In this document: positions 44,642-64,000 of the stretch, one piece after another | Numbering within the stretch: the first letter of the stretch is position 1 | Layout: every line of letters starts with the position of its first letter | DNA from: Paraburkholderia edwinii | Lineage (GTDB): Bacteria > Pseudomonadota > Gammaproteobacteria > Burkholderiales > Burkholderiaceae | Assembly (NCBI RefSeq): GCF_019428685.1 | Contig: NZ_CP080096.1 | Coordinates: 124,001-188,000, forward strand | Reading direction: 5' to 3' | Length of the DNA: 64,000 nt | Translations under genes and position numbers: made by a program | Notes under the pieces: model-generated | What the model was told of the DNA's origin: nothing | What the model saw: only the letters and a program-made list of their open reading frames with translations | The model's database searches: none

Positions 44642-45643
44642 CTAGTTCGCCAGCGTCTGAAGTTGCGCGAGCAACGAATCCGGAATCTCGATACCGTCGC
44701 GGCCTGCCGCATCCGCAAGACCATGACGGCGCTGCCCAGGCAGACGCACATCCGGATCCTGCAACAGGCTTTCGATCAGCGCCTCGACGCGCGACAGGTA
44801 CATGTCGTTGCCGGTGAGCGCGCCCGGATCGACCGCCCAGAACAGATGGCCGATGCGCGAACGCTCGCCTTCCTCGGTCAGAAACGAGCCTGCTTCGTAG
44901 CCGAAATTCGCACCCGCGAGCGCCGCCGCGAGCAGTTCGACCATCAACGCAAGCATGGCTCCCTTCGCGCCGCCGAACGGCAGCACCATGCCGTCGAGCG
45001 CGGCCTTCGCATCGGTGGTCGGCGTGCCGTCGCGCGTGGTTGCCCAGCCTTCGGGAATCGGCTTGCCTTCGCGCGCGGCGATCATGATCTTGCCGCGCGC
45101 CGCCTGCGAGAGCGACAGGTCGATCATCAGCGGCTCGCCGCTACGGCGCGGAAACACCGCCGCAATCGGATTGGTGCCGAACAGCGGATGACGCCCGCCC
45201 CACGCCGGCATCGCGCCCGGCGAATTGCTGAATGCGAGTCCGACGAGCCCCGCTTTGCCGAGCGCTTCGAGGTGATACGCGCCGACGCCGAAGTGATGGC
45301 TGCGCGTCACGCTCGCGACCGCGCTGCCGTGTTCGCGTGCGCGCGCGATCAGCGTTTCGACGGCAAGCGCGCAAGCGGGAAAGGCCATGCCGTCGGCGGC
45401 ATCGACCAGCACGGCCGCATTGCGCGATGCGATGACCGTGGGCCGCGCATGCGGATCGACGCGACCGTTGCGCAGTTGCGAGATATACATCGGCAACCTC
45501 GCGACGCCGTGCGACGACAGGCCGCGTTCGTCCGCATAGACGAGCGCGCGCGCCGTCGCAACCGCCGTTTCATGCGGCGCGCCCGTGCGTTCGACGGCGC
45601 TCGTTGCAAGCGCAAGCAGGGCATCGGGTGAAACACGCGTCAT
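44642..45643 (-). CDS. Ldh2/ComC-family 2-hydroxyacid (malate/sulfolactate) dehydrogenase
   Basis: 333 residues from ATG 45643 (AAGGAA seven bases upstream). Family marks: DERGLSSHGVARLPMYI near the N-terminus, VTRSHHFGVGAYHLEALGKAGLVGLAFSNSPG, the substrate loop GGRHPLFGTNPIA and PLMIDLSLSQAARGKI. These enzymes reduce or oxidise 2-hydroxyacids: malate, ureidoglycolate, 2,3-diketogulonate, or 3-sulfolactate (ComC). Being in line with DctA and the SuyA/SuyB-like genes, a sulfolactate or malate role is favoured; the sequence alone does not decide. The long frame running to 47179 is a shadow of dctA. Confidence 0.85.
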   Translation of the reverse strand: MTRVSPDALLALATSAVERTGAPHETAVATARALVYADERGLSSHGVARLPMYISQLRNGRVDPHARPTVIASRNAAVLVDAADGMAFPACALAVETLIARAREHGSAVASVTRSHHFGVGAYHLEALGKAGLVGLAFSNSPGAMPAWGGRHPLFGTNPIAAVFPRRSGEPLMIDLSLSQAARGKIMIAAREGKPIPEGWATTRDGTPTTDAKAALDGMVLPFGGAKGAMLALMVELLAAALAGANFGYEAGSFLTEEGERSRIGHLFWAVDPGALTGNDMYLSRVEALIESLLQDPDVRLPGQRRHGLADAAGRDGIEIPDSLLAQLQTLAN

Positions 45644-45711
45644 AGCAGCATTCCTTTTTTCACGTTGTTGCGGCCGGGACGCGCCGCAACCGGCCGCAAC
45701 GCCCCGCCCTG

Positions 45712-47049
45712 TCAGTTCGAATGTTCGCGCGCGAAGGCCGGCGGCGCACCGCCTTCGGTCTCGCCCGTTTGAGTTTGCGGCTCGTCGCGCAGTACGTCTT
45801 GCGGCGGCGCCGCGAGAAACTCGCGCGCGGCGCGCGCGTCGAATGCGCCTTCCCAGCGTGCCACCACAATCGTCGCCACCGCGTTGCCGATCATGTTCAC
45901 GATCGCGCGCACTTCGTTGAGCACGCGGTCGATGCCCAGAATCAGCGTGATGCCCGCCACGGGAATGATATTGTGCGTCGACAGTGTAGCGGTAAGCGCA
46001 ACCAGCGCGGCGCCCGCCACACCGGCGCCGCCCTTCGACGTCAGCATCAGCACCGCGAGCAGGCCGAGCTGCTGCCATAGCGTGAGATGCGTGTTCGTGG
46101 CCTGCGCGATAAAGAGCGACGTCATGGTCAGATAGATCGCCGCGCCGTCGAGATTGAACGAGTAGCCGGTCGGCAGCACAAGACCGACCACCGTCTTCGG
46201 GCAGCCGAGGCGCTCGAGCTTTTCCATGAGCCGCGGCAGCACCGATTCGGTCGTCGACGTGCCGAGCACGATCAGCAGCTCCTCGCGCAGATACTTGAGC
46301 AGCGGCCACAAGCCGACACCGGCCCAGCGGCAGATCGTGCCGAGCACGAGCACGATAAACAGAATGCTCGTCACGTAGAAGCACACGATCAGCAAGCCAA
46401 GCTGCTGCAGCGTCGTGATGCCGTACTTGCCGACCGTGAATGCCATCGCGCCGAATGCGCCAAGCGGCGCGAGCCGCATGATCATCTCGACGATGCTCAT
46501 CAGCGTGTCGCTGGTCTGCTCGATCACGCGCATCAGAAAACGGCTGCGGCGCGAGCCGAGCGAAAGCGCAATGCCGAACAGCACTGAGAACAGCAACACT
46601 TGCAGGAGATCGCCGCGCGCGAACGCGCCGACCACCGAGTTCGGCACGATCTGCTCGAGGAAATTCGTCGATGCCTGATTGTGCACTTCGGTCACGTAAC
46701 GTCCGACTGCTTGCGGATCGAGCGTCTTCGGATCGATGTTCAGACCCGCGCCCGGATGCAGCACATTCGCAACCACGAGCCCGATCACGAGCGCGACGGT
46801 CGTGACGATTTCGAAGTAAACGATGGTCTTCAGGCCGACCCGGCCCACCGATTTCAACGACTCCATCCGCGCGATGCCGACCGACACGGTGCAAAAGATC
46901 ACCAGCGTGATCAGCATCTTGATGAGGCGGATGAAGGTGTCGCCGAACGGCTTCATTTGCACGCCGAAGTCCGGCGTGAAGTGACCGACGAGAATGCCGG
47001 CGGCAAGTCCGATCAGGACCTGCACGTAGAGATGTCGTAGCACGCGCAA
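45712..47049 (-). CDS. dctA: DctA-family C4-dicarboxylate:cation symporter
   Basis: 445 residues, DAACS family. Seen: VLIGLAAGILVGHFTPDFG, the serine-rich/loop region VLGTSTTESVLPRLMEKLE, the proline-asparagine motif VLPTGYSFNLDGAAIYLTM and GNAVATIVVARWEG. It imports succinate, fumarate, malate and similar dianions; a sulfonated analogue is possible here. The start is an unusual TTG at 47049, eight bases after GGAGGAG; an in-frame GTG at 47043 is the alternative. It lies between the SuyB-like and Ldh2 genes. Confidence 0.9.
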   Translation of the reverse strand: MRVLRHLYVQVLIGLAAGILVGHFTPDFGVQMKPFGDTFIRLIKMLITLVIFCTVSVGIARMESLKSVGRVGLKTIVYFEIVTTVALVIGLVVANVLHPGAGLNIDPKTLDPQAVGRYVTEVHNQASTNFLEQIVPNSVVGAFARGDLLQVLLFSVLFGIALSLGSRRSRFLMRVIEQTSDTLMSIVEMIMRLAPLGAFGAMAFTVGKYGITTLQQLGLLIVCFYVTSILFIVLVLGTICRWAGVGLWPLLKYLREELLIVLGTSTTESVLPRLMEKLERLGCPKTVVGLVLPTGYSFNLDGAAIYLTMTSLFIAQATNTHLTLWQQLGLLAVLMLTSKGGAGVAGAALVALTATLSTHNIIPVAGITLILGIDRVLNEVRAIVNMIGNAVATIVVARWEGAFDARAAREFLAAPPQDVLRDEPQTQTGETEGGAPPAFAREHSN

Positions 47050-47259
47050 GATGGTGTCTCCTCCACTCGCTGCTGCTCTGCTGGAAATGGAACAATGCTG
47101 CGCGACGCGTGCCGGGCTTGATATGCGTCTGCCTGCCCTTGTGCGTTATGAGGAACTGCGCGTTGCGCGAACAATGCATGTGCGGCGCCGCACGCGGGAG
47201 CGGAGTGCTCCCGCGCGTGTGCCGTAACGCGGTGCTTTCGGCCGTGCCTTGGGGCTTAA

Positions 47260-47300: not shown

Positions 47301-47307
47301 CTTTCGA

Positions 47308-48483
47308 TCAGGCGCTTTCGAACAGACGCGTCAGCACGAACTCGCGATGGCCGAGCGCTTCAGCGGACGTGAAGCGGCCGTTGATCGTGGCCATCATCGA
47401 TTCGAGCAGCTTGTCGCCGGCCTGGTCGAGGTTCTGCTCGCGCTGCAGCAGGCCCGACACATCGACGTCGATATGCTCGCTCATCGTGCGCACAGTGCGC
47501 GGATTCGCGCAGATCTTGATGACGGGCACGATCGGGTTGCCGATCACGTTGCCCTGACCGGTCGGGAAGAAGTGCACGGCGAAGCCCGAGGCTGCACACA
47601 GCGTGACCATTTCCGCGGCGGCCGACGACGAATCCATAAACCACAGGCCCGAATGCGTCGGTTCTTCGGCCTTGTCGAGCACGCCGTCGATCACACACTT
47701 TTTGCCGATCTTCTGGATGTTGCCGAGCGCCTTTTCTTCGATCGTCGTGAGGCCGCCCGCGATATTGCCCTTGGTCGGCTGCGATTCGGAGAGGTCGTCG
47801 GTCTTCCAGCGGTTGATCATGTCCTGATAGCGATCGAACATGAACTGGAAGCGCTCGCGCACCTTGTCGTTCGCGCAGCGCGCCGCGACGATCTGCTCGC
47901 CGCCCGTCAGCTCCGACGTCTCGCCGAACACGAGCGTCGTGCCAAGGCCGTACAGCTTGTCGAAGGCGTTGCCGACCGTCGGGTTCGCGCCGCAACCGGA
48001 CGTCGTATCCGACTCGCCGCACTTCGTCGACACCCACAGGTCGCCGATCGGGCACTCGACGCGATCGAGCGACGTGGCGTACTGCACCATCTCCTTGGCG
48101 GCCTTCGAGGCGCGCATGATCGTGTCGTGATCGCCATGCAGTTCGATGCCGAAGCCCATCACCGGCTTGCCCGACTTCGCGATGCCGTCGACCACGCGCT
48201 TGGTCCAGCCTTCCTCGATGCCGATCACGACGACCGCTGCGACGTTCGGATTGCAGCCCGCGCCGATCAGCGTGCGGAAATGCAGGTCGAGGTCGGCGCC
48301 GAATTGCAGGCGGCCGTACGGATGCGGCAGCGCCATCGTGCCCTTGATGTTGTTTTCGACCGCCAGCGCCGCGGCATTCGACAGATCGTCGACCGGCAGG
48401 ATGATCACATGGTTGCGCACGCCGACGCGGCCGTTGTCGCGACGATAGCCGCGGAAAGTGGTGTTCTTGTCAATCACGCTCAT
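47308..48483 (-). CDS. suyB: UxaA-family lyase large subunit, probable (2R)-sulfolactate sulfo-lyase beta
   Basis: 391 residues, the size of SuyB; fused altronate or galactarate dehydratases are about 500. The Fe-S/active region reads [19 protein letters not shown], differing from the CGGSD..SG of altronate and galactarate dehydratases and matching what I recall of SuyB. The N-terminus ([20 protein letters not shown]) and [19 protein letters not shown] also fit. The reaction would be sulfolactate to pyruvate plus sulfite. Its small partner is the next gene upstream. Family firm, substrate probable rather than proven; a hydroxy-acid dehydratase is the alternative. Confidence 0.75.
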
Positions 48484-48561: not shown

Positions 48562-48885
48562 TTACCAGCGCTTCGTCTTGATGTTGTGCACGTGAGCGTG
48601 CTCGCCCGCCTTGATCGGCGCGACGACCTTGCCGATATCGACGCCGTACTTGAACACCGTGTCGCCGACGGCCATGTCCTTCAGCGCGACTTTGTGGCCG
48701 ATCGGAATGTCCTGCTTCGCGGACACCGTAACGATTTCGTCATCGTCCATGATCCACGCATTCAGTTGCGTGCCTGCCTTGATGCCTTCCACCACCGCAA
48801 CGCCAACGGTGTCCTTCGATTCATGCAGCACGATGTGAATCGTTCTTTGCGATGCCTTTGCCGCACCTGCTTCGGTGTTGCTCAT
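48562..48885 (-). CDS. suyA: UxaA/SAF-domain small subunit, probable sulfolactate sulfo-lyase alpha
   Basis: 107 residues, the SAF-type small subunit that is fused in altronate dehydratases but separate in SuyAB. Seen: TIHIVLHESKDTVGVAVVEGIKAG, VTVSAKQDIPIGHKVALKDM and the end GEHAHVHNIKTKRW with the histidines expected to ligate metal or substrate. First gene of the leftward operon, 78 bases ahead of the large subunit, and divergent from the UTRA-type regulator with a dyad between them. Confidence 0.75.
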   Translation of the reverse strand: MSNTEAGAAKASQRTIHIVLHESKDTVGVAVVEGIKAGTQLNAWIMDDDEIVTVSAKQDIPIGHKVALKDMAVGDTVFKYGVDIGKVVAPIKAGEHAHVHNIKTKRW

Positions 48886-49081: not shown

Positions 49082-49846
49082 ATGAACACGCCGACCATCA
49101 TCAGCACGACTCCCGCCATCGGCGGCACGCGCTACAAGGAAGTGAAAAATGCGATGCTCGCGGCGCTATCGGCGCACGAATGGAAGGGCGGCGAGACAAT
49201 CCCTTCCGAAAAGCGCCTCGCCGAGCGCTTCGGCGTGTCAATCGGCACGTTGCGCAAGGCGATCGACGAACTGGTCGCGGACAATATCCTCGTGCGCCAT
49301 CAGGGGCTCGGCACCTTCGTGGCGCAACACCAGCGCGACCGTCATTTCTTCCGCTTTTTCCGCGTCGTGCGCGCAGACGGCGACAAGACCTATCCGACCG
49401 TGAGCCTCGTATCGTTCAGGAAGGCGAAAGCAACGCGCGACGTCGCCGCGCTGCTCAATATCGAAACTGGCGCGCGCGTTTTCACGTTCCTGAACCAGCT
49501 CGCGCTGCACGGCCAAAAAGTGATGACCGAGAACATCACAGTGCCGGAGTCGCGTTTTCCGGGACTCAGCGAAGCGACGCTGCGCGAGCGGGAAAGCACG
49601 CTCTACAACCTCTACCAGGACGTGTTTCACATCAACGTCGTGGGCACCGACGAACGCGTGCGCATCGCGCTGGCCGACGAGGTGGAAAGCGGCTTGCTCG
49701 GCGTCGAAGCGGGCGCGCCGATTCTCGAGATCCGGCGCGTCGCGTACTCGTATCATCACGTGCCCGTCGAGGTGCGCATCTCGCACGTGAATACCGAGCA
49801 CTACGAATATGTGGGTGCGTCAGCGTCGCACGACGAAGCGTCGTGA
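49082..49846 (+). CDS. GntR-family (HutC/UTRA subfamily) regulator
   Basis: 254 residues from ATG 49082 (AAGGGG eight bases upstream). Winged HTH about 20-80 with KGGETIPSEKRLAERFGVSIGTLRKAIDELVADNILVRHQGLGTFV, then a UTRA effector domain ending VPVEVRISHVNTEHYEYV. UTRA proteins bind small sugar-phosphates, acids or amines and repress. It is divergent from the sulfo-lyase operon and upstream of the ABC operon, with similar 15-bp sites in front of both. Most likely the local repressor. Confidence 0.92.
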   Translation: MNTPTIISTTPAIGGTRYKEVKNAMLAALSAHEWKGGETIPSEKRLAERFGVSIGTLRKAIDELVADNILVRHQGLGTFVAQHQRDRHFFRFFRVVRADGDKTYPTVSLVSFRKAKATRDVAALLNIETGARVFTFLNQLALHGQKVMTENITVPESRFPGLSEATLRERESTLYNLYQDVFHINVVGTDERVRIALADEVESGLLGVEAGAPILEIRRVAYSYHHVPVEVRISHVNTEHYEYVGASASHDEAS

Positions 49847-50160: not shown

Positions 50161-51171
50161 ATGAGCTTTCGCAAAGTCGCCGTCGTACTTTCCGCGCTGG
50201 CCGCGCTGTTTGTCTGCACTGTCGCCCGCGCCGACATGACAGAGATCAAGATTGCGCGCCAGTACGGCGTCAGTTATTTGCCGCTGATGCTGATGCAAGA
50301 CCAGAAACTGCTGGAAAAACATGCCGCGCAACTCGGCATTCCCAATCTGAAGGTATCGTGGGTCGAATTCGCGGGCGGCAACGTGATGAACGACGCGCTG
50401 CTGTCCGATTCGCTGCAGATCGCCTCGGGCGGCGTCGCGCCGCTCGTGCTGCTGTGGTCGCGCACACACGGCACGCCGCTCGAAGTGAAGGCGCTCGCCG
50501 CAATCAATTCGATGCCGCTGCTGCTGAACACGACAAACTCCGCGGTGAAAACCGTGAAGGACTTCTCCGGTAAGGACAAGATCGCGCTGCCGGCCGCCAA
50601 GGTATCGATTCAGGCGATCACGCTGCAAATGGCGGCGGAAAAGGCCTTCGGTGCCGGCAACCAGGGGCAGCTCGACAAATACACGGTGTCGCTGTCGCAC
50701 CCGGATGCGCAGCAGGCGTTGCTCTCGGGCAGCAGCGAAGTGACCGCGCATTTCGGCTCTCCGCCGTTTCAGGAGCAGGAACTCACGCACCAGAACGTGC
50801 ATACGGTGCTGAATTCGTACGATGTGCTCGGCGGCAAGTCGACCTTCAATCTCGTCTGGTGCACATCGAAGTTTTATCAGCAGAACCCGAAGCTCGTGCA
50901 GGCATTCATGGCCGCGCTCGATGAAGCGGAAGCGTCGATCAACAAGGACAAGCACGCCGCCGCGCTCGCTTATCTACGCATCAGCAAGGACAAGAGCAGC
51001 GTCGACGACATCGAGAAGATGATTTCGGCGCCTGACGTGCAGTTCACGACGGTCCCGCAAAACACGGTCAAATACGCGGACTTCATGGCGCGCACCGGCC
51101 TCATCAAGACGAAGCCGGCAACGTGGAAAGACCTGTTCTTTCCGACCGCGCAATCGCAGCAAGGGAGCTGA
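50161..51171 (+). CDS. ABC transporter substrate-binding protein, NMT1/SsuA-TauA type
   Basis: 336 residues with signal peptide (VAVVLSALAALFVCTVARA, cleavage about residue 24). Mature protein begins EIKIARQYGVSYLPLMLMQD, the standard opening of NitT/TauT-family binding proteins, and contains SDSLQIASGGVAPLVLLWSR and STFNLVWCTSKF with the lobe-closing pattern. These carry nitrate, taurine, aliphatic sulfonates or other small anions and pyrimidine precursors. Ligand unknown; a sulfonate is favoured by the surrounding sulfite genes. Confidence 0.85.
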   Translation: MSFRKVAVVLSALAALFVCTVARADMTEIKIARQYGVSYLPLMLMQDQKLLEKHAAQLGIPNLKVSWVEFAGGNVMNDALLSDSLQIASGGVAPLVLLWSRTHGTPLEVKALAAINSMPLLLNTTNSAVKTVKDFSGKDKIALPAAKVSIQAITLQMAAEKAFGAGNQGQLDKYTVSLSHPDAQQALLSGSSEVTAHFGSPPFQEQELTHQNVHTVLNSYDVLGGKSTFNLVWCTSKFYQQNPKLVQAFMAALDEAEASINKDKHAAALAYLRISKDKSSVDDIEKMISAPDVQFTTVPQNTVKYADFMARTGLIKTKPATWKDLFFPTAQSQQGS

Positions 51172-51173
51172 CC

Positions 51174-51989
51174 ATGTATTCGATGCGTAATTCCAGCGGT
51201 GCGTCTTCGTCGGGACACGCGCCGGGCGACGCGCCGCTGCTCGACGTAAAGGGCGTCACGCTGCAATACAAGACACGCAAGCACCTCGTGATGGCGACCT
51301 ATCGCGTCGACTTCCAGGTGTTCCAGGGCGACCGTTTCGTGCTGCTCGGCCCGTCGGGTTGCGGCAAGTCGACCTTGCTGAAGAGCGTCGGCGGCTATCT
51401 GCCGCCCACCGAAGGCTCGATCACGCTGAAGGGCAAGACCATCACGAAGCCCGGCCCCGACCGCATGATGGTGTTTCAGGAATTCGACCAGCTGCTGCCG
51501 TGGAAAACCGTCAAGCAGAACGTGATGTTTCCGCTGCTGTCGTCGCGGCGCCTCAATGCGCGCGAAGCGGAACAGCGCGCGATGCACTATATCGACAAGG
51601 TCAACCTGACGAAATTCGCCGATAGTTACCCGCATACGCTGTCGGGCGGCATGAAGCAGCGCGTCGCGATTGCGCGCGGCATGGCGATGGAACCCGACAT
51701 TCTGCTGATGGACGAACCGTTCGCGGCACTCGATGCGCTAACGCGCCGCAAGATGCAGGACGAGCTGCTCGCGCTATGGCAGGAAACGCGCTTCACGGTG
51801 CTGTTCGTCACGCACTCGATTCCGGAAGCGATCAAGGTCGGCAGCCGCATTCTGCTGCTGTCGCCGCATCCGGGCCAGGTGAAGGCCGAGCTCAACACGG
51901 CCGTATCGGGCGAAGCCGCAGTCGCGCTTGAAAAGCGCATCCAGCACATGCTGTTCGAAGACGAGATCGAAGAGGCCGAGAATGTCTAA
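51174..51989 (+). CDS. ABC transporter ATP-binding protein (SsuB/TauB type)
   Basis: 271 residues from ATG 51174, two bases after the binding-protein stop. Walker A LGPSGCGKSTLLK, Q-loop MVFQEFDQLLPWKTV, signature LSGGMKQRVAIARG, Walker B ILLMDEPFAALDALTRR and H-loop VLFVTHSIPEA are intact. 'QLLPW' after the Q-loop is typical of nitrate/sulfonate/taurine ATPases. Translationally linked to the permease by an eight-base overlap. Confidence 0.93.
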   Translation: MYSMRNSSGASSSGHAPGDAPLLDVKGVTLQYKTRKHLVMATYRVDFQVFQGDRFVLLGPSGCGKSTLLKSVGGYLPPTEGSITLKGKTITKPGPDRMMVFQEFDQLLPWKTVKQNVMFPLLSSRRLNAREAEQRAMHYIDKVNLTKFADSYPHTLSGGMKQRVAIARGMAMEPDILLMDEPFAALDALTRRKMQDELLALWQETRFTVLFVTHSIPEAIKVGSRILLLSPHPGQVKAELNTAVSGEAAVALEKRIQHMLFEDEIEEAENV

Positions 51990-52923
51990 CGGTACTATCC
52001 GGGGCGCCGCATCCGCCACTGCTTTTCCCCCTGAAACGGCGCGCGACACCGCGGCCGGCCTCGCATCCGCGCCGCGTGAAGAGATCGTGCGCGAGACCAG
52101 CGACACGCATCAGTTCAGCGTCGTCGAAAAGCCGCTGTCGACGTTCGAGCGGCTCTACAACCAAGGATGGATTCGCAAGTTCGTGATTCTCGCGTTTCTC
52201 GCGATCGTCTGGGAAGTGTATGGGCGCATCCTCAATAACGCGCTACTGTTCCCGACTTTTAGCGCGACGGTCGAAGCATTCGTTACGAGCATCGCGAGCG
52301 GCGAGCTGCCCGGCAAGGCGTGGGCGTCGATTCATGTGCTGCTGATGGGCTACGCGGCCGGCATCGTGCTCGCCGCGGTGTTGACCGCGGCGGCGATCAC
52401 ATCGCGCATCGGCACGGATTTTCTCGAAACCATGACGTCGATGCTGAACCCATTGCCCGCGATCGCGCTGTTGCCGCTTGCGCTGATCTGGTTCGGTCTC
52501 GGCAACGGCAGCCTGATTTTCGTGCTCGTGCATTCGGTGACGTGGTCTGTCGCATTGAATACGCATTCGGGCTTTCTGTCGGTCAGCAATACGCTGAAGA
52601 TGGTCGGGCGCAACTACGGCCTGCGGGGCGGCCGCTATGTGACGAAGATTCTCGTGCCCGCCGCGTTCCCGAGCATTCTCACGGGCCTGAAGATCGGCTG
52701 GGCGTTTGCATGGCGCACGCTGATCGCCGCGGAACTCGTGTTCGGCGTCAGCTCCGGTTCGGGCGGCCTCGGCTGGTTTATCTACGAGAACAAGAACCTG
52801 CTCGATATCGCGAATGTGTTCGCCGGACTGTTCACGGTCATTCTGATCGGCCTCGCCGTCGAAAACCTGATCTTCCGCACGCTCGAACGGCATACGGTGC
52901 AGCGTTGGGGCATGCAGTCGTGA
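51982..52923 (+). CDS. ABC transporter permease (SsuC/TauC type)
   Basis: 313 residues from ATG 51982. A long cytoplasmic N-terminus (about 65 residues) precedes six helices; the EAA-like loop reads YGLRGGRYVTKILVPAAFPSILTGLKIGWAFAWR, placing it with NitT/TauT permeases, and LLPLALIWFGLG is another family mark. Forms the channel for the preceding ATPase and binding protein. A 94-base gap separates it from the TauE/SafE gene. Confidence 0.92.
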   Translation: MSNGTIRGAASATAFPPETARDTAAGLASAPREEIVRETSDTHQFSVVEKPLSTFERLYNQGWIRKFVILAFLAIVWEVYGRILNNALLFPTFSATVEAFVTSIASGELPGKAWASIHVLLMGYAAGIVLAAVLTAAAITSRIGTDFLETMTSMLNPLPAIALLPLALIWFGLGNGSLIFVLVHSVTWSVALNTHSGFLSVSNTLKMVGRNYGLRGGRYVTKILVPAAFPSILTGLKIGWAFAWRTLIAAELVFGVSSGSGGLGWFIYENKNLLDIANVFAGLFTVILIGLAVENLIFRTLERHTVQRWGMQS

Positions 52924-54803: not shown

Positions 54804-56500
54804 CCTGGCCGCACGCGCGTGAACTGCACGCGGCGGCGCGTCGTTTCGAGCGCGCCGTCGTCGAGCATGCGCAGGCACATATATTCGGATGTCTCAAGAT
54901 CGCCCGCATCGGGGAAATCTTCGCGGAAATGCGCGCCGCGCGAGTTTTCGCGCAGCAACGCCGATTCGGTGATCGCGCGGCTCACAAGCGTGAGATTCTG
55001 CAGATTCAACCAGTCGTGCCACGACAGATTGAACCGCAAGTCACGGCTGTCGACGCCCGTGCGATCGAGACGCGCCTCGATATCGAGCAAGGCATTGCGT
55101 GCGCGCTCGAGACCCTGCGCATCGCGCAGAATGCCGACGTCGTTCCACATCAGGTCGTAGAGCGTTTCGCGGATTGCTTCGAGGTCGCCATCGGGCTTGC
55201 GCGTGAGCGGCGCGCTGCATCGTTCGACCGCACGCTCGATCTGTTCGCGGTCCGCTGCCTCGTGGTGCCCGAACCGCGGCACCCATTGCGCGAGCGTTTC
55301 ACCGGCAATGCCGCCGAACACGGTCGAATTCGCGACGCCGTTGCCGCCGAGGCGATTCGCACCATGCACGCCGCCCGCATCTTCACCAGCGACAAAAAGG
55401 CCCGACAGCGTCGTCGAGCAATCGGCCGCGAACTCCACACCGCCCATCATGTAGTGCGCGGTCGGCACGACTTCGACCTGACCGCCCGCGAGATCGAAGC
55501 CGCAATCGGCGCAGCGCTCGACCATGCCCTTGAAGCGCTGCCGCACTGAGTCCGGCCCGAGATGGTCCATGCGCAGGTAAACGCCGCCGTTCGGCGTCGC
55601 GTTGCCCGCGCGCAGTTCGCGAAAAATGCTGCGCGACACGATATCGCGCGTCGCGCGTTCACCGCGCGGATCGTAGCGATGCATGAAGCGCTCGCCGTCG
55701 CCGGTCAGCAGATAACCGCCCGCGCCGCGCAAACCTTCTTCGAGCACGGTGCCGGTCATGCGTGTATGCGTGCCGGCGAGCAGCCCCGTCGGGTGGAACT
55801 GCACCATTTCCATATCGCGCAGCGTGAGCCCCGCGCGCATGGCCATCGCCATGCCGTCGCAGCTCTTGTCGCCGCTCGGTGTGTGGTACTTGTACATGGT
55901 CGGACCGCCGCCCGTTGCTAGCAGCACCGCCTTCGCGCGCACGAATACGAATTCGCCGCTGCGCATGTCGATCATCAGCACGCCGGCGAGCGCGCCGCCT
56001 GACTGCGTTTCGATAAATTCCACCGCGCGATGTTCCTCGAGCCGCGCGATACCGCGCGCCCACACCTGTTCCGCAAGCCGGTTGATAATCTCGATGCCGG
56101 TCTGGTCGCCCTTGTGCACCGTGCGATCAAAGGTCTGTCCCGCGAATGCCTTCTGCTTCAGCGTGCCGTCCGGATTGCGGTCGAAAAAGCAGCCGAGTTC
56201 GTTTTCGAGCTCGTTAATCCGTTCGACCGCGCGCGTGACGAGCGTCCAGGCGAGGTCCTGGTTCGACAGCCATTTGCCGCCCTCGATCGTGTCCATGAAA
56301 TGACGCTCGATCGAATCGCCTTGCGCAAGCGCCACGTTATAGCCGCCCTGCACCATGCGCGTACAGCCGCATTTGCCGAGCAGGCCCTTTACCGCGATCG
56401 TGATGCGCAACTGCGGCGCCGCGGCGTGCGCGTGCAGCGCGGCGAACAGGCCCGCGCCGCCGCTGCCGAGAATCAGGATGTCGGTGTCGTACTGCTTCAT
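54668..56500 (-). CDS. sdhA: Succinate dehydrogenase/fumarate reductase-type flavoprotein
   Basis: 610 residues from ATG 56500. FAD motif DILILGSGGAGLFAALHAHA; active-site marks HPTG (FHPTGLLAGTHTRMTG), RGAGGYLLTGDGERFMHRYDP, PTAHYMMGGVEF and GANRLGGNGVANS are intact. At the position of the histidine that binds FAD covalently in SdhA/FrdA (before the QGG) the sequence is KCGCTRMVQGG, so that histidine is replaced by cysteine and FAD is probably not covalently held. The last about 45 residues are a low-complexity tail overlapping the convergent LysR gene. Separated from its FeS and anchor partners by the fumarase genes. Confidence 0.85.
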   Translation of the reverse strand: MKQYDTDILILGSGGAGLFAALHAHAAAPQLRITIAVKGLLGKCGCTRMVQGGYNVALAQGDSIERHFMDTIEGGKWLSNQDLAWTLVTRAVERINELENELGCFFDRNPDGTLKQKAFAGQTFDRTVHKGDQTGIEIINRLAEQVWARGIARLEEHRAVEFIETQSGGALAGVLMIDMRSGEFVFVRAKAVLLATGGGPTMYKYHTPSGDKSCDGMAMAMRAGLTLRDMEMVQFHPTGLLAGTHTRMTGTVLEEGLRGAGGYLLTGDGERFMHRYDPRGERATRDIVSRSIFRELRAGNATPNGGVYLRMDHLGPDSVRQRFKGMVERCADCGFDLAGGQVEVVPTAHYMMGGVEFAADCSTTLSGLFVAGEDAGGVHGANRLGGNGVANSTVFGGIAGETLAQWVPRFGHHEAADREQIERAVERCSAPLTRKPDGDLEAIRETLYDLMWNDVGILRDAQGLERARNALLDIEARLDRTGVDSRDLRFNLSWHDWLNLQNLTLVSRAITESALLRENSRGAHFREDFPDAGDLETSEYMCLRMLDDGALETTRRRVQFTRVRPGQSLLDDADAPNGAPSTTSTPVTPTDAAPAPREPVAAGSSVPPVK

Positions 56501-56555: not shown

Positions 56556-57167
56556 CTACGAACGAACACCGAGCGACGCGAGCACCTTGTCACGCTGCGA
56601 CTGCGTGTTCTGCTGCACCGTCGTGTAGACGCTGCCGCCATGGCTATCCATCGCGACAAGCAGCGGCCCAAACTCGCCGATCCTGAAACGCCACAACGAT
56701 TCGGGGTTCAGATCGTCGAGATCGACGTCTTCGATCTGCTCGATCCATGTCGTTTCGAGCGCCGCCGTGCCGCCGATAATCGCGAGGTACACGCCGCCGT
56801 GCTTCGCGAACGCATCGGCGGAACTCTTCGCGAGCCCCCCTTTGCCGATCACGATGCGCACGCCGTATTGCGCCATCAGCGGCTCGGTAAAGCGCTCCAT
56901 GCGCATCGATGTCGTGGTGCCGATGCAGATCGGCTCGTAGCCGGCAGGGTTTGCATCCGATACGGGCACGCGGCGCACATTAGGCGCCGTGTGAATAACC
57001 GCGTGGCCGTTCAGATCGAAGCGCGTCTTGCGGCCGCGATCGAACATATGGATTTGCGTGGCGTCGCGAATGCCGAACAGCGTGCCGGTCAGCGTCACCA
57101 TGTCGCCGATTTTCAGTTCGCGGATTTGTGCCTCGGTGACGGGCATTTGCAATACGTGGTGCGTCAT
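56556..57167 (-). CDS. Class I fumarase/tartrate dehydratase, beta subunit
   Basis: 203 residues, the C-terminal domain of class I fumarases as a separate subunit. Seen: LTGTLFGIRDATQIHMFDRG, PICIGTTTSMRMERF and the swivelling-domain IGKGGLAKSSADAF and GGTAALETTWI. With the alpha subunit it hydrates fumarate, or mesaconate, or dehydrates L-tartrate. The pair sits inside an sdh-like operon, which favours fumarate or a substituted fumarate. Confidence 0.9.
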   Translation of the reverse strand: MTHHVLQMPVTEAQIRELKIGDMVTLTGTLFGIRDATQIHMFDRGRKTRFDLNGHAVIHTAPNVRRVPVSDANPAGYEPICIGTTTSMRMERFTEPLMAQYGVRIVIGKGGLAKSSADAFAKHGGVYLAIIGGTAALETTWIEQIEDVDLDDLNPESLWRFRIGEFGPLLVAMDSHGGSVYTTVQQNTQSQRDKVLASLGVRS

Positions 57168-57218: not shown

Positions 57219-58088
57219 TCAATAGCCGTATTCGACTTCGCCGCGCGTCAACGTCGCACGCGCGCGTCGCGCCGAATGGCATTGCATGTTCACTGCGACC
57301 GGATTCATCGTGATGTGCGTCGCGGCGAGTTCGACATGCACCGCGAATGCGGTTGCATCGCCACCGAGCCCTTGCGGACCGACACCGAGCTGATTCACAG
57401 CGGCGGACAGTTCATCTTCGAGTGCCGCCGCATGCGGATCGTCATTGCGCGTGCCGAGCGCGCGCGTCGCCGCACGCTTCGCCAGCCATACGCACAGATC
57501 CGACGTGCCACCCACGCCGACGCCGACGATCGTCGGCGGACAGGTCTTGCCGCCGGCGTCGACCACGCAGTCGATCACGAACCGCTTGATCGCGTCGATG
57601 CCATCGGCGGGCGTGGCCATTTTCAGAAAAGAGTTGTTCTCGGAGCCGCTGCCCTTCGGGATCATTTCGATGACGAGCGTATCGGCGGTCGAATCGAAGT
57701 CGAGATGAATCGCAGGCATCAGCGGGCCGCACGACGTCTGTTCATTCTGTCTCGTCAACGGATGCACGACCGACGAGCGCAGCGGATGCTCGCGCGTCGC
57801 GCGTTCGCAGCCGCGACGAATCGCCTCTTTCAGCGCGACGCCATCGAGCACGAGTCCGGCGCCGATCGTTACGTTGTAGATCGGTAGGCCCGTGTCCTGG
57901 CACAGCAGGTTGTCCTCGCTTTCGGCGACGCCGATATTCGTGCGCATGATGCCTAGCACGCGGCGCGCGGTGTCGTCGGTTTCCGTGCGTTCGAGGCGCG
58001 CGATGCCGTCCTTGATGTCAGGCGGCAATTGCTTCAACGCGCGAATGTAAAGCTGCTTCGCGACTTCTTCGACTTGCTGCATGTCCAT
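57219..58088 (-). CDS. Class I fumarase/tartrate dehydratase, alpha subunit
   Basis: 289 residues from ATG 58088 (GGAG eight bases upstream). ATG 58157, in an ATGA overlap with the anchor gene, is an alternative adding 23 residues. The three Fe-S cysteines appear in LLCQDTGLP, QTSCGPLMP and GGKTCPPTIVG. GSGSENNSFLKMATPADG is characteristic of fumarases of this class rather than of other hydro-lyases. Partner of the beta subunit next in line; one leftward operon with the sdh-like genes. Confidence 0.9.
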   Translation of the reverse strand: MDMQQVEEVAKQLYIRALKQLPPDIKDGIARLERTETDDTARRVLGIMRTNIGVAESEDNLLCQDTGLPIYNVTIGAGLVLDGVALKEAIRRGCERATREHPLRSSVVHPLTRQNEQTSCGPLMPAIHLDFDSTADTLVIEMIPKGSGSENNSFLKMATPADGIDAIKRFVIDCVVDAGGKTCPPTIVGVGVGGTSDLCVWLAKRAATRALGTRNDDPHAAALEDELSAAVNQLGVGPQGLGGDATAFAVHVELAATHITMNPVAVNMQCHSARRARATLTRGEVEYGY

Positions 58089-58153: not shown

Positions 58154-58570
58154 TCATAACGTGAGCGACAGCGCGAATGCGAGGCCGATCACGAGCGCGC
58201 CGCCCGCGGTCGCTGCGATCAGGTCCTTGCGCAGGCCGCTCCACGGCCGGTACTCGATCAGCAGAAGCCGCACGCCGCCGATCAGATGCGCGGCGAGCAG
58301 CGTAACGAGCCCCCATTCCGCGAACACGAACGCGGGCTGACGCGTCACCGCGAGAAACGAATCGAATGCCGCGGCGCCGTGCAAAGCGGTGCCGAGCGCC
58401 CAGAAATGCATCGGCAGAAACACGGCGAGCGCGAGGCCCGACAGGCGATGCACGAGAAAGGCCCACCATGCGGGATGGTTGCGCGCGCGAGCGTCGGCAC
58501 GACGCCCCGGGGTTTTGCGCCGGCCCGCAGCAGCCGCGCCGTTGGCGTGCGATGCGTCGAGTTCGCTCAT
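58154..58570 (-). CDS. Succinate dehydrogenase-type membrane anchor (SdhC-like)
   Basis: 138 residues from ATG 58570, whose ATGA overlaps the stop of the upstream anchor gene. A disordered basic N-terminus (about 40 residues) precedes three helices. The family's HRLSGLALAVFLPMHFWALG is visible, with histidines able to ligate haem b. Its own stop overlaps the alternative fumarase alpha start, so the operon is tightly coupled. Confidence 0.85.
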   Translation of the reverse strand: MSELDASHANGAAAAGRRKTPGRRADARARNHPAWWAFLVHRLSGLALAVFLPMHFWALGTALHGAAAFDSFLAVTRQPAFVFAEWGLVTLLAAHLIGGVRLLLIEYRPWSGLRKDLIAATAGGALVIGLAFALSLTL

Positions 58571-58908
58571 AGCGGCCCTCCGGTCAGCGCGAAAACCGCG
58601 CGCAAGCCCGCGATAGCGAGCATCAGACCAATCAGCACGCTGACTGCGAATACGCTTGGCCCCCGCCAGCCGAGCCATTCTTCGGCGATGCGCCGCAAGC
58701 CGACCGGTACGTGCGCGGCCGCCGCCAGCACGAATACGGCATAAAACAGGCCCCACACCACGTTGCCGTGCAGCCGCGTGAGAATCGCGCCTGCGGAGAG
58801 ACCGCCATGCACAACAGCGATCATCGTGATCAGATGCACGGTCACGCAGACCGCGAGCACCATCGCCGAAATGCGCTGTACGCGCCAGCCGCTCATCGCT
58901 GCCTTCAT
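58567..58908 (-). CDS. Second small membrane anchor of the sdh-like complex
   Basis: 113 residues, three helices. Start overlaps the sdhB-like stop and its stop overlaps the next anchor start (ATGA on both sides). RVQRISAMVLAVCVTVHLITM and the second-helix LHGNVVWGLFYAVFVLAAAAHVPVG supply a probable haem histidine each. It is shorter than standard SdhC/SdhD but placed exactly where the second anchor should be. Confidence 0.8.
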   Translation of the reverse strand: MKAAMSGWRVQRISAMVLAVCVTVHLITMIAVVHGGLSAGAILTRLHGNVVWGLFYAVFVLAAAAHVPVGLRRIAEEWLGWRGPSVFAVSVLIGLMLAIAGLRAVFALTGGPL

Positions 58909-59639
58909 TCAGGTGCTCCTTGCGGCGCCTTGCCGTTCAGGCGCTTCAGGCCCGCAATGCTCGCGGTCGGCGCCAGCGACTTCGGACAGCGCTCCGTGCA
59001 TGAGCCGAGCGTATGGCACGAATGGCAGCCCGCATCGTTCGATATCGCCGCGACACGCGCCTGCTGCTGCGTATCGCGTACATCGTTGATGAGCGTCCAT
59101 GCGCGGTTGAGCGCGGCGGGACCGAGATAGTCAGGATTCCATGCGACGACGTCGCAGCTCGCATAACACACGCCGCAGCCGATGCATTCAATGCCGGCGT
59201 CGACGGCCTTGCGTGCGGGCGAAGCCGGATCGACACGCGCGGCCGGCTCGGCACGCGTGCGCTGCCCCGCGAAATAGCCCTTCGCGTCGCGCCATTTGTC
59301 GAAGAAACCGGTCATATCGGTGGCGAGGTCCTTGACCACCGGCAGATGATTGAGCGGCGCGATCTCGAGCACGTCGTCCGCGTGACGCAGCACTTTGGTC
59401 ACATGAGTGCGGCAGGTCCAGCGCGCGCGGCCGTTGACCGTCATCGCGCACGAGCCGCACATGCCGACGCGGCACGCGAAGCGATACGAGAGCGTCGCGT
59501 CGAGATGGCGCTGGATATAAATGACGACGTCGAGAACCGTCTGGCTCTCCATGCGCGGGACGTCGAAGCGCTGAAACTCGCCTTCGTCCGCACCGCGCCA
59601 GACGCTCACTTTCAGGGTTGTGGGGGTAGTGCCTGGCAT
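58905..59639 (-). CDS. sdhB: Succinate dehydrogenase/fumarate reductase-type iron-sulfur subunit
   Basis: 244 residues. Plant-type 2Fe-2S ligands in CRVGMCGSCAMTVNGRARWTC (split here as CRVGMCGSC and its later Cys), then 4Fe-4S/3Fe-4S ligands in CIGCGVCYASC and CHSCHTLGSCTERCPKSL. It conveys electrons between the flavoprotein and the quinone site in the anchors. First gene of the leftward operon sdhB, two anchors, fumarase alpha, fumarase beta, sdhA. Confidence 0.92.
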   Translation of the reverse strand: MPGTTPTTLKVSVWRGADEGEFQRFDVPRMESQTVLDVVIYIQRHLDATLSYRFACRVGMCGSCAMTVNGRARWTCRTHVTKVLRHADDVLEIAPLNHLPVVKDLATDMTGFFDKWRDAKGYFAGQRTRAEPAARVDPASPARKAVDAGIECIGCGVCYASCDVVAWNPDYLGPAALNRAWTLINDVRDTQQQARVAAISNDAGCHSCHTLGSCTERCPKSLAPTASIAGLKRLNGKAPQGAPE

Positions 59640-60874: not shown

Positions 60875-60876
60875 GA

Positions 60877-60936: not shown

Positions 60937-60980
60937 GGCCGCCAGGCAAGGCTCGGGATCAGGCGCCCGGCCCCGCAGGC

Positions 60981-61931
60981 TCAAGCTGCCTGGCGGTAGT
61001 ACAGGTTCTGCGGATGACGCGCTTCGGCGAAAAAGAACCAGCGCTCGGCCACCAGCCCCGCGTACTGGATCGCACACGCGGCGCACAGCAGCACAGCCGA
61101 CAGCGCAACCGACCCAACGCTGCCGCCCAGCGCGATCAGCACGAACGGCACCGGAAACGCCGCGATCAGAAACGTCCACTTGATGCGCTGCAATGTTCGC
61201 AGGTTCTTGCCGTGGAAGAACTCGCGCAGATTGAACGCGCCGGCCGTGAAGCCGCGCGATTTCTGCACGACCTTCGCCGAGCGAATGCCGGTCGCGCTTT
61301 GTACAGTCGACTTCGGCCGCAAGCGTGCATTGCGCCTGAGCGACGCGACGCGCGCGACACCGCCGGCGAGCGTCAGCACGCATGCGCAAACCGCAAGCCC
61401 CGGCACGAGCGCGGGCGCACACCACGCGGCGCTCGCCGCCGCAACCGTGAAGCCTGAGGCGCAGCCGAGCAGCACGAAGTTCACCATCGTGAGCGGCGTT
61501 GCCCATTCCTGCAGAAAGCGTAAGCACGCATAGATCATCGACGTGCAGACGAACAGCACGCCGCTTGCGAGCACACCGATTGCACCGACCGCGAGCGAAT
61601 ACGGCGCGCCGAGCGCATGCAGAACGCCATACGCGAACACGCACGCGAGAAACACCGGCAAGGCGAGGCATTCGCGCGACAGCCACGACGTGCGCCACAT
61701 CGCAATCGCGCGCCACGCGCGCTCCGGATGGCCAAGATGGAAAAACGATGCGAATAGCCCAAGCACGCCGAGCACGACCGACAGCGCTGCGCCGACAACA
61801 AAAAACACCTGCGGCGGCATCGCGATCAAGCCGAACTGCGCGGCGAGCTCGACGCCAAAGAGCGCGATCATCAGGCCTTGGCCCGCGCCGCTCAACGTCG
61901 TCAGAAATACTACTGAGAAAGCCGGATTCAT
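60981..61931 (-). CDS. soeC: SoeC: membrane anchor of sulfite dehydrogenase
   Basis: 316 residues, DmsC-type anchor with eight helices. N-terminal MNPAFSVVFLTTLSGAGQGLM and FHLGHPERAWRAIAMWRTSWLSRE are characteristic of the SoeC/DmsC group; the cytoplasmic basic loop (RRNARLRPK... FHGKNLRTLQRIKW) is also typical. It transfers electrons from SoeAB to the quinone pool. Last gene of the leftward soeA-soeB-soeC set; 20 bases after soeB. Confidence 0.88.
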   Translation of the reverse strand: MNPAFSVVFLTTLSGAGQGLMIALFGVELAAQFGLIAMPPQVFFVVGAALSVVLGVLGLFASFFHLGHPERAWRAIAMWRTSWLSRECLALPVFLACVFAYGVLHALGAPYSLAVGAIGVLASGVLFVCTSMIYACLRFLQEWATPLTMVNFVLLGCASGFTVAAASAAWCAPALVPGLAVCACVLTLAGGVARVASLRRNARLRPKSTVQSATGIRSAKVVQKSRGFTAGAFNLREFFHGKNLRTLQRIKWTFLIAAFPVPFVLIALGGSVGSVALSAVLLCAACAIQYAGLVAERWFFFAEARHPQNLYYRQAA

Positions 61932-61951
61932 CGTGGGGTCCCCTGATTCTT

Positions 61952-62704
61952 TTAAACGCGCGTCGCCATCGACGCGAGATCGACCACGCCGTGCTCGAGC
62001 GGAGCCGTCCGCTCCGTACCGGTCTCATCTCCGATGTCCGCGCTTTCGGCGCCCGAGCCGCACGAGCATGAGCCGCTGCCGCACGCGGTCGTCTTCTGCC
62101 GCGGCAAATAGTGATTCGCCGGACGCGTGCCCCACTCCGGCATCAGTTGATACCCGCCGCGCTCGCGGATCGCCTTCGAGACCACCGATTCCGGGTCGTG
62201 AATATCGCCGAAGAGCCGCGCCGACGTCGGGCACGCGAGCACGCAGGCGGGCTGGCGATCGCGCTCGGAGAACGACTCGTTGTGAATGCGGTCCGCGCAC
62301 AGCGTGCACTTCGTCATCTCCTTGCGTTCCTCGTCGAGTTCGCGTGCGCCATACGGGCACGCCCACGCGCAGTACTTGCAGCCGATGCAGCGGTCGAAAT
62401 CGACCAGCACGAGGCCGTCTTCCTTGCGCTTGTAGCTCGCGCCGGTCGGACACACGGGTACGCAGGGCGGGTCTTCGCAGTGCAGGCACGACTTCGGAAA
62501 GTGAATCGTATCGGCAAGCGGAAATTCGCCGGCTTCGAACGTCTGCACGCGATTGAAAAACGTGCCGGACGGATCGGCATCGTAGGGACGCGCATCCGAC
62601 AGGCTCCCCGCCTCGCCGGACGTGTTCCATTCCTTGCAGCTCGTCACACATGCGTGGCAGCCCACGCACACGTTCAGATCGATCACGAGCGCCATCTGGG
62701 TCAT
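61952..62704 (-). CDS. soeB: SoeB: four-cluster ferredoxin subunit of sulfite dehydrogenase
   Basis: 250 residues from ATG 62704 (GAGGAG at good spacing). Four cysteine groups are visible: CVGCHACVTSC, CLHCEDPPCVPVC, CIGCKYCAWAC and CTLC...CVLAC, and the ending QLMPEWGTRPANHYLP. The start MTQMALVIDLNVCVG and the lack of a signal peptide fit SoeB of the cytoplasmic sulfite:quinone oxidoreductase SoeABC known from Allochromatium. The Cys-rich tail (CGSGSCSCGSG) is an extra feature. It passes electrons from SoeA to SoeC. Confidence 0.9.
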   Translation of the reverse strand: MTQMALVIDLNVCVGCHACVTSCKEWNTSGEAGSLSDARPYDADPSGTFFNRVQTFEAGEFPLADTIHFPKSCLHCEDPPCVPVCPTGASYKRKEDGLVLVDFDRCIGCKYCAWACPYGARELDEERKEMTKCTLCADRIHNESFSERDRQPACVLACPTSARLFGDIHDPESVVSKAIRERGGYQLMPEWGTRPANHYLPRQKTTACGSGSCSCGSGAESADIGDETGTERTAPLEHGVVDLASMATRV

Positions 62705-62717
62705 TGGGTGCTCCTCA

Positions 62718-64000
62718 TCAAATATCTTTCGAATCTTTGGCGGTGCGGCGCAAACGCGTCGCAAATTCGCCGCGCCCCGCGAAATAGGTCTGCACGATGC
62801 GCTTGAGCGTGCCGACCGATCCCGGCAGCGGCTGCATCGGCGCGAACTGCGGTAGCGTGTGATCCGCATCCGCTTCGGCCGGATAGACGCGCACGCGCAC
62901 GTCGTACCACGCGGCCTGGCCGGTAATCGGATCGGAGTTGGAAATGCGCGAAGGCGCCCGCGCAGAGGCGGCTTCGCCGTTGCCGCTGCGATCGGCCTCG
63001 CCATCCGCCGGCAGTTCGTCCGTGATCAGGTGATTGAGCAGAAAGCCGCGCTGCGATTCGTTCGCGTCGGGACCGAGGTTCCATGCGCCCGCGGCCTTGC
63101 CAATCGCATTCCACGTCCACACCGTGCCCGGTTCGACCGCTTCGCTGTAGCGCGCCATGCAGCGCACCTTGCCCCATTGCGACTCGACGTAAATCCAGCC
63201 GCCGTCCTCGATGCCCTGCTCACTCGCCATGCGAGGATTCATAAACAGATAGTTTTCGCCGTGAATCTGCCGCAGCCACGCGTTTTGCGAGTCCCACGAG
63301 TGATACATGGCCATCGGCCGCTGCGTGACCGCCGCCAGCGGAAAACGCGCGAGATCGGTGGTGTTGCGCTCGAGCGGTTCGTACCAGAACGGCAGCGGAT
63401 CGAAGTAACGCGCGACGCGTTCGCGCAGATGATCAGGCGGCTGACGGCCTTGGGTCTTGCCTTGCGCGGCGAGACGGAATTTCTGCATCACATCCGAGTA
63501 GAGCGCGATCACAATCGGCTCGGGAAACTTGCGAAAGCCCTTTTCGACCGCGAATTGCAGATACGGACCATTCTGGCCGCGCATGTACTGCAATGTCTCG
63601 GGCAGCGTGTAGTGGTACACGCAATTGTTTTTCGCGTACTGTTCCCATTGATTCGGATTCGGCTTGCCGACCAGCGCCTCGTCGCCGTCCTCGCCGCGCC
63701 AGCCGATCAGGAAGCCGACGCCCGAGCCGGGCGCGGTTTCGTGGCCGATGATGAACTCCGGATAGTCGCGATACTTGCGCGTGCCGTCCGGCTTCGTGAA
63801 TGCCGGCAGCTTGAGACGGCTGCCGAGTTCGATCAGCACCTCCTGGAACGGCCGGCACTCGCCGGTCGGCGGCACGACAGGCACACGCACCGAATCGACC
63901 GGCCCGTCGAATTCGGAAATCGGCCGGTCGAGCATCGACATCGCGTCGTGGCGTTCGAGGTACGTCGTGTCGGGAAGAATCAGATCCGCGAACGCGGTCA
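62718..64000 (-). CDS. soeA: SoeA: molybdopterin subunit of sulfite dehydrogenase, cut by window edge
   Basis: About 427 codons of the C-terminal part are visible; the frame is open to base 64000. Seen: TAFADLILPDTTYLER at the edge and MNPRMASEQGIEDGGWIYVES in the dinucleotide-binding domain, both typical of DMSO-reductase-family enzymes, with the long C-terminal region of SoeA. The internal ATG at 63941 is not the true start. Adjacent to soeB and soeC in the right order. Sulfite to sulfate is the expected reaction; related tetrathionate or polysulfide enzymes share much of this architecture, but SoeB decides for SoeA. Confidence 0.85.
   Translation of the reverse strand, partial: TAFADLILPDTTYLERHDAMSMLDRPISEFDGPVDSVRVPVVPPTGECRPFQEVLIELGSRLKLPAFTKPDGTRKYRDYPEFIIGHETAPGSGVGFLIGWRGEDGDEALVGKPNPNQWEQYAKNNCVYHYTLPETLQYMRGQNGPYLQFAVEKGFRKFPEPIVIALYSDVMQKFRLAAQGKTQGRQPPDHLRERVARYFDPLPFWYEPLERNTTDLARFPLAAVTQRPMAMYHSWDSQNAWLRQIHGENYLFMNPRMASEQGIEDGGWIYVESQWGKVRCMARYSEAVEPGTVWTWNAIGKAAGAWNLGPDANESQRGFLLNHLITDELPADGEADRSGNGEAASARAPSRISNSDPITGQAAWYDVRVRVYPAEADADHTLPQFAPMQPLPGSVGTLKRIVQTYFAGRGEFATRLRRTAKDSKDI

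Follow-up and report, generated by a model that had tools for sequence, protein, structure and literature searches.

The window analysed here, a stretch of 64,000 bases from Paraburkholderia edwinii (bases 124001-188000 of contig C2; the genome has 8,298,884 bases in two contigs), carries an island of genes related to the degradation of sulfonates and the handling of sulfite (Table 1). Gene families were called with Pfam and NCBIfam profiles and several gene starts were refined afterwards. All families that an earlier note on this DNA had named were located in their places. An apparent minus-strand operon, suyA-suyB-dctA-ldh2 (48885-44642), has a GntR/UTRA gene in divergent orientation to suyA. 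The plus-strand group consists of the genes for an ATP-binding cassette (ABC) importer, a TauE permease and a LysR regulator. The minus strand further carries sdhB-sdhC-sdhD-fumA-fumB-sdhA (59639-54668), then an AAA ATPase and then a SoeABC-type complex, of which the full-length SoeA-like protein has 989 amino acids (L094:719-3688). Each family is common, as the earlier note says, but their grouping is above chance, since it recurs in related loci. Judging from sequence comparison, we lean towards the view that the island serves the catabolism of 3-sulfopropionate, and that in it re-purposed enzymes of the tricarboxylic acid (TCA) cycle would act before a known sulfo-lyase.

Table 1. Genes of the island, with positions in the window and the features on which the names are based.
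Gene or product	Position	Strand	Basis
suyA, (2R)-sulfolactate sulfo-lyase small subunit	48562..48885	-	78% identity (92 residues) to hps-cluster SuyA
suyB, (2R)-sulfolactate sulfo-lyase large subunit	47308..48483	-	UxaA/GarD-type; identity, clade, missing cysteines
dctA, C4-dicarboxylate transporter, candidate importer	45712..47049	-	NCBIfam PRK01663, 605 bits vs cut-off 513
Ldh2/ComC-family dehydrogenase	44642..45643	-	PF02615
GntR/UTRA regulator	49082..49846	+	PF00392, PF07702
NMT1/SsuA-superfamily ABC binding protein	50161..51171	+	PF13379
ABC transporter ATPase	51174..51989	+	PF00005
ABC transporter permease	51982..52923	+	PF00528
TauE/SafE permease, probable sulfite or sulfonate exporter	53018..53767	+	PF01925, 97.9 bits
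LysR-type regulator	53820..54803	+	PF03466, PF00126
Divergent SdhA-like flavoprotein, proposed 3-sulfopropionate dehydrogenase	54668..56500	-	PF00890, PF02910
FumB, C-terminal half of two-gene class I fumarase-like hydratase, type I	56556..57167	-	PF05683
FumA, N-terminal half of that hydratase, proposed sulfoacrylate hydratase	57219..58088	-	PF05681; PRK06246; CQDTG
SdhD-like membrane anchor	58154..58570	-	PF01127
SdhC-like membrane anchor	58567..58908	-	PF01127
SdhB-like iron-sulfur subunit	58905..59639	-	PF13085 and 4Fe-4S domains
AAA ATPase between sdhB and soeC	59741-60874
SoeC-like membrane anchor	60981..61931	-	PF04976 (DmsC), 51.3 bits vs cut-off 22.3
SoeB-like iron-sulfur subunit	61952..62704	-	PF13247 and other 4Fe-4S domains
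SoeA-like molybdopterin subunit	62718..64000, past window end	-	PF04879, PF00384, PF01568

The assignment of suyA and suyB to a sulfo-lyase pair, already proposed from the sequence, is one on which identity, clade and missing cysteines agree. As expected of SuyAB, there are two separate subunits, a small SuyA and a large SuyB, coded by adjacent genes. At 86.4% identity, SuyB is close to its counterpart in Cupriavidus pinatubonensis HN-2, which belongs to a cluster hpsN-hpsO-major facilitator superfamily (MFS) transporter-dehydrogenase-suyAB. The order of this cluster matches that of the C. pinatubonensis hpsRNOUPsuyAB cluster in the excerpts of PMC11382572. SuyA has no Pfam match of its own and is named after the SuyA from the hps-suyAB cluster in C. 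pinatubonensis, to which it is 78% identical over 92 residues. The two SuyAB pairs are nearly the same in kind. The nearest named relatives of SuyB come from Paraburkholderia solisilvae and P. rhizosphaerae (98% identity).

An identity as altronate or galactarate dehydratase was also considered and is ruled out by tree, cysteines and cut-off. In a tree of 32 rows, which carries a long-branch warning for the outgroups, SuyB from the window falls within a clade of 22 rows (100/100) together with copies from Cupriavidus, Paracoccus, Methylobacterium, Sinorhizobium and Rhodococcus. E. coli UxaA, GarD and five paralogues from the window's genome lie outside; of the six PF20629 proteins in this genome, only SuyB from the window belongs to the clade. 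Thus SuyB does not group with altronate or galactarate dehydratases. The UxaA/GarD superfamily is described, in the accessible part of PMC6336799, as conserving four cysteines, with sulfolactate sulfo-lyase as the exception. In our alignment, three columns hold cysteine in 7/7, 6/7 and 7/7 dehydratases and another residue in all 16 rows of the SuyB clade, while one cysteine column is common to all dehydratase and SuyB-clade rows. The score of SuyB on the galactarate dehydratase model of NCBIfam is 149.8 bits against a cut-off of 730.85. These comparisons make it very likely that SuyAB is a genuine sulfolactate sulfo-lyase.

It probably serves sulfolactate derived from 2,3-dihydroxypropane-1-sulfonate (DHPS) as well, since homologues of hpsN (80%), hpsO (65%) and hpsP (62%) occur about 215 kb from the window (C2 397.6-400.7 kb; L181, 6.6-9.7 kb) and suyAB is absent from the 19 kb stretch around them. 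A second suyA-like small gene, together with a second dctA that is more distant (47-49% identity), was found to head the Sdh-Fum genes at several related loci (L017, L018, L019, L105, L151), where it has no suyB label of its own.

To follow the connection between the Sdh-Fum module and SuyAB, we started from SdhA and analysed 299 genomes of the window's family (E <= 1e-130 for SdhA, E <= 1e-100 for SuyB). SdhA is present in 37 and SuyB in 60 genomes; the two occur together in 35 (Fisher p 5e-27, with no correction for relatedness). Where SdhA is at least 71% identical, SuyB occurs on the same contig in 26 of 28 cases, at a distance of 3.4-10.3 kb. The remaining two genomes (G219 and G233) are fragmented assemblies with SuyB pieces on other contigs. 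At an SdhA identity of 66% or less, a linked SuyB is found in one of nine cases. In genus g13 (L101, L102), perhaps Polynucleobacter, ten genomes of about 2 Mb within the window's family carry SdhA, nine to ten of them with SuyB nearby, which suggests that the substrate is common in nature.

The joint arrangement also occurs elsewhere. A plasmid of Methylobacterium radiotolerans carries the full set plus SlcC and TauE, and two haloarchaeal plasmids group a SuyAB-like pair, TauE, SdhA, SdhB and an argininosuccinate-lyase-family protein (L114:5485-12453 and L115:4416-12413), with Ldh in one of the two. A fumarase-type gene is absent from the listed stretch of both haloarchaeal modules, where the argininosuccinate-lyase-family protein may take the place of the hydratase. 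Among Actinobacteria, which are thinly covered in this comparison, one Rhodococcus SuyAB cluster has no Sdh in its 29 kb stretch, and R. jostii RHA1 has an SdhA-like match about 19 kb from SuyB.

The two gene sets might be separate units that happen to be neighbours, SuyAB-DctA-Ldh2 being used for sulfolactate and Sdh-Fum for some other dicarboxylic or sulfonated acid. This would agree with their different regulators (GntR and LysR), with the lack of the module at most SuyB loci and with the Sdh-Fum modules of type II described below, which usually occur without SuyAB (SuyB adjoins 1 of 40 typed loci, L100, as judged from the stretches read). However, the tight linkage of SdhA and SuyB, the joint arrangement in Methylobacterium and haloarchaea, and the sulfite or sulfonate markers next to most type II modules render it quite unlikely. 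Going by its gene neighbourhoods, we take the Sdh-Fum operon to be part of the SuyAB system.

The SdhA of this operon differs from that of complex II. The comparison covered 71 rows. Besides the window and L092, these were 69 out of 136 loci, kept if they exceeded 350 bits and 450 residues; the clade is thus defined by similarity. All 71 rows have Cys at the position of E. coli SdhA His45, Glu at Thr254 and Gly at Ser404, and all retain H242, E255, R286, H354 and R399. We take His45 to be the flavin-binding and Thr254 a substrate-site residue, and the retained residues to be catalytic, as in complex II. Between the HPTG motif and Glu254-Glu255, all rows carry a basic insert of the form [T/S]-[R/K]-[M/L]-T-G (TRM in 60, TKM in 7, TKL in 2, TRL and SRM in 1 each). 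His45 and Thr254 are present in E. coli SdhA, in FrdA and in the second SdhA-like protein of the genome (L088). In two NadB proteins, position 45 is Ser or Ala and Thr254 is retained; their insert is shorter and lacks the clade motif. The clade is separated from these five references at 100/100.

Scores point in the same direction. On SdhA/FrdA models of NCBIfam, SdhA from the window reaches 434.9 bits against a cut-off of 567.3 and 344.3 bits against one of 727.35. It matched 33 families, and for each of the 25 listed its score lies under the cut-off. An ordinary succinate dehydrogenase is ruled out by residues and scores. The operon resembles complex II and fumarase in its subunits A, B, C and D, in the catalytic His, Arg and Glu residues and in the adjoining class I fumarase, and differs in the separate clade of its SdhA. 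Among the matches listed, the names given to clade members in the collections are 'L-aspartate oxidase', 'FAD-binding protein' and 'fumarate reductase flavoprotein'.

These changes also bear on the idea of spare, sulfite-tolerant TCA enzymes, by which Sdh-Fum would replace succinate dehydrogenase and fumarase that are poisoned by sulfite during sulfonate degradation. The position of Sdh-Fum, always or mostly near sulfite genes, and the score of FumA, which passes a fumarase cut-off, are what such enzymes would show. We consider the idea very improbable, given the loss of the flavin-binding His and the change of the substrate-site Thr throughout the clade, the failure of SdhA to meet any of the listed cut-offs and the haloarchaeal modules with no fumarase-type gene in their listed stretch.

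The hydratase was typed at 71 of 137 loci. FumA and FumB agree in type at all 71, of which 31 are type I and 40 type II. The motif CQDTG, which also occurs in E. coli FumA and TtdA, is found in 32/32 FumA rows of type I (with the window added). The 41 rows of type II, in which one locus occurs twice, have CGDTG (30) or CADTG (11). In FumB, the corresponding motif of type I is TTTSxRME and that of type II ATASFRF, and the type II gene order is sdhBCDA-fumAB (L116-L148). FumA from the window carries CQDTG, and its FumB stays under the cut-offs of the models for fumarase and tartrate dehydratase and slightly exceeds that of the model for the TtdB/FumA C-terminus (147.7 vs 145.15).

The substrate of the module was approached via SuyB. 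We compared 13 SuyB sequences linked to the module with 20 from Sdh-free genomes (20 of 25 such genomes), six of which have hpsN at the SuyB locus. None of 391 columns has disjoint residues between the two classes, and 242 columns are invariant across all 33 sequences. Pairs across the classes reach 98% identity, and two g13 sequences have just 77-78%. With no difference in SuyB between the two classes, its substrate should remain sulfolactate, and this is what the module should make. A module with ordinary sulfolactate as its product points to a C3 acid, 3-sulfopropionate. Sulfolactate is an isostere of malate, as are sulfoacrylate of fumarate and 3-sulfopropionate of succinate. Since the Cahn-Ingold-Prelog priorities switch, hydration as for L-malate should yield (2R)-sulfolactate, and as this is the enantiomer used by SuyAB, no inversion would be needed. 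A close SlcC was not found in the window's genome (best 37%), which fits a route free of inversion. Inversion of sulfolactate by SlcC and Ldh2, initially regarded as a necessary step, was dropped for these two reasons.

The earlier note had suggested that a sulfonated C4 acid could feed into the same lyase. For sulfosuccinate, the Sdh-like enzyme would yield sulfofumarate and the Fum-like enzyme 3-sulfomalate, from which SuyAB, or spontaneous loss of sulfite in case the hydroxyl group is placed on the sulfonated carbon, would release oxaloacetate and sulfite. Both carboxylates are kept in this substrate, which fits the retained H242, H354 and R399, DctA is a carrier of C4-dicarboxylates, and by our reasoning the chemistry of SuyAB would suit any 2-hydroxy-3-sulfo acid. 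Yet the site of Thr254 is altered in SdhA, and SuyB is alike in Sdh-linked sequences and in Sdh-free ones, a part of which comes from hps clusters. Our literature search for sulfosuccinate returned surfactant or unrelated papers and nothing on degradation genes; for sulfomalate it returned nothing. We consider this route unlikely and rank it below that from 3-sulfopropionate because of the invariance of SuyB and because a 3-sulfopropionate route is cited in PMC11489063. The C4 acid thus comes second best, as the unchanged SuyB points to a C3 acid.

With 3-sulfopropionate as the substrate, import would be by DctA and/or the ABC importer. The divergent SdhABCD would convert 3-sulfopropionate to 3-sulfoacrylate with transfer of electrons to quinone, and FumAB of type I would add water to give (2R)-3-sulfolactate, the spatial equivalent of L-malate. 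SuyAB would, by close homology, split (R)-sulfolactate into pyruvate and sulfite. As judged from their families, SoeABC is predicted to oxidise sulfite to sulfate in the cytoplasm and TauE to export sulfite or a sulfonate. Ldh2 probably links sulfolactate and sulfopyruvate. The earlier note had drawn a path from import and oxidation to desulfonation and removal of sulfite; what is supported of it is a path from sulfonate to sulfite in which SuyAB desulfonates, and the Sdh-Fum operon, which the note had seen embedded there, is part of the system.

Sulfolactate is also the branch point of the C. pinatubonensis hps-suyAB system in the excerpts of PMC11382572. There it is formed from DHPS via HpsN, whereas here the adjacent Sdh-Fum module is the proposed source. 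For the use of homotaurine by Roseovarius nubinhibens ISM, the thesis of Jutta Mayer, as cited in PMC11489063, gives a route via 3-sulfopropionate, sulfoacrylate and sulfolactate. This is the same chain of intermediates as proposed for the island, but no genes are named for it in the portion of PMC11489063 consulted, and 'succinate dehydrogenase' and 'fumarase' are absent from its main text. Sulfoacrylic acid is also made by XcbC1, a member of the argininosuccinate-lyase family from bacterial coenzyme M synthesis (PMC8727900, in excerpt). XcbC1 gives a separate link of this family to sulfoacrylate, and the haloarchaeal modules contain a relative, although XcbC1 removes phosphate from phosphosulfolactate and the window has a fumarase-type enzyme instead.

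Natural sources of 3-sulfopropionate are on record. The anaerobe Enterococcus gilvus makes it from sulfoquinovose and DHPS (PMC11489063), and Burkholderia and Cupriavidus make it from homotaurine (PMC11489063, PMC9594981). Its degradation required further study according to a review of 2022 (PMC9594981) and, in 2024, was unreported for bacteria apart from the thesis (PMC11489063), as far as the accessible parts of both sources go. In the open literature, which leaves the thesis and subscription papers out of scope, we found no gene assignment for the steps from 3-sulfopropionate to sulfolactate. The genes for 3-sulfopropionate breakdown appear to be undescribed so far, and what is new is that a succinate dehydrogenase and a fumarase, divergent and put to another use, would supply the known SuyAB pathway. 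If true, this provides concrete genes for the 3-sulfopropionate route, testable with one operon, explains a large protein family that now carries the labels listed above, and is a case of TCA enzymes re-used for sulfonate carbon.

Several points weigh against the assignment of the island to 3-sulfopropionate. SuyAB does not need the Sdh-Fum module, as SdhA or FumA was found within the fetched stretch in only 16 of the 80 related loci that were chosen by SuyB (L007-L086, flanks up to 10 kb), and two genomes, G226 and G251, carry this SdhA without SuyB. FumA from the window passes the fumarate hydratase model PRK06246 (307 vs 276 bits) and its substrate might thus be ordinary fumarate. The loss of the covalent-flavin His of complex II argues against easy oxidation of a succinate-like substrate, and for the addition of water to sulfoacrylate, attack at C2 is chemically the more difficult of the two directions. 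On the argH model, the haloarchaeal lyase scores above the cut-off (323 vs 279.5), and on that of XcbC far under it (260 vs 575). No sulfur marker was found at 9 of 33 type II loci, and sulfosuccinate fits much of the same evidence.

Further such points concern the accessory genes. Of the proposed sulfonate-type ABC importer, the ABC importer itself is present; its binding protein reaches 92 bits for the SsuA family, under the cut-off of 163.5, so that 'sulfonate-type' is a superfamily label only. Likewise, the Ldh2/ComC-type dehydrogenase belongs to its family, yet reaches just 219 bits on the sulfolactate dehydrogenase model NF040650 (ComC), which has a cut-off of 500. By sequence, piperideine-carboxylate reductase is the first and sulfolactate dehydrogenase the second among its best solved structures. 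The identification of SoeABC is based on domain make-up and a missing export signal, not on phylogeny.

DctA and the TauE/SafE permease were confirmed by their profiles. The SoeABC-type complex was found as announced, with a complete make-up of a molybdopterin subunit A with 4Fe-4S, a ferredoxin-like subunit B and a DmsC-type anchor C. The N-terminus of the SoeA-like protein has no twin-arginine export signal. Relatives of SoeA, B and C adjoin suyAB in 6 of the 80 loci (L010, L011, L012, L016, L021, L025), and in L022 a SoeC relative alone stands beside suyAB. A GntR relative recurs next to suyAB in related loci.

Type II modules are common in family f55 (34 of 295 genomes), which is probably Rhodobacteraceae, as its copies are 79-85% identical to one from Paracoccus. 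SuyB is present in 52 of the 295 genomes and together with type II in 10 (Fisher p 0.09). Within 12 kb no pair of SuyB and type II SdhA was found in this family; in one case the two share a contig, at a distance of about 500 kb. TauE (at least 35% identity) lies beside 13 of 20 loci from f55 and, among 33 type II loci, beside 20; a sulfite or sulfonate marker of some kind was present at 24 of these 33. In a rough control from another lineage, 20 Sdh-free SuyB loci, there was no TauE label. Methylmalonate-semialdehyde dehydrogenase adjoins 3 of 33 type II loci, in one case with a score of 695 against a cut-off of 448.5.

We speculate that the type II module may desulfonate by itself. In a wider and rather unlikely proposal, the SdhA clade would be a 'sulfo-TCA' family, widespread in both Bacteria and Archaea, for the oxidation of 3-sulfopropionate. 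Modules of type I would hydrate sulfoacrylate to sulfolactate for SuyAB, and type II would add water at the sulfonated carbon, with spontaneous loss of sulfite to give malonate semialdehyde, a new desulfonation chemistry in many marine bacteria.

Type II modules often adjoin LysR-TauE and tripartite tricarboxylate transporters, and three of them an Amidohydro_2 protein (PF04909; L120:13601-14440, L146, L148). Many modules of both types adjoin a thiamine-diphosphate enzyme from the group of acetolactate synthase and 2-hydroxyacyl-CoA lyase (L092:5318-6943, L102:10706-12325, L104, L105, L095, L116 and others), which has no close copy in the window's genome (best 33%). Downstream of the island, the window codes for a regulator of the DJ-1/PfpI-AraC type (42585-43523).

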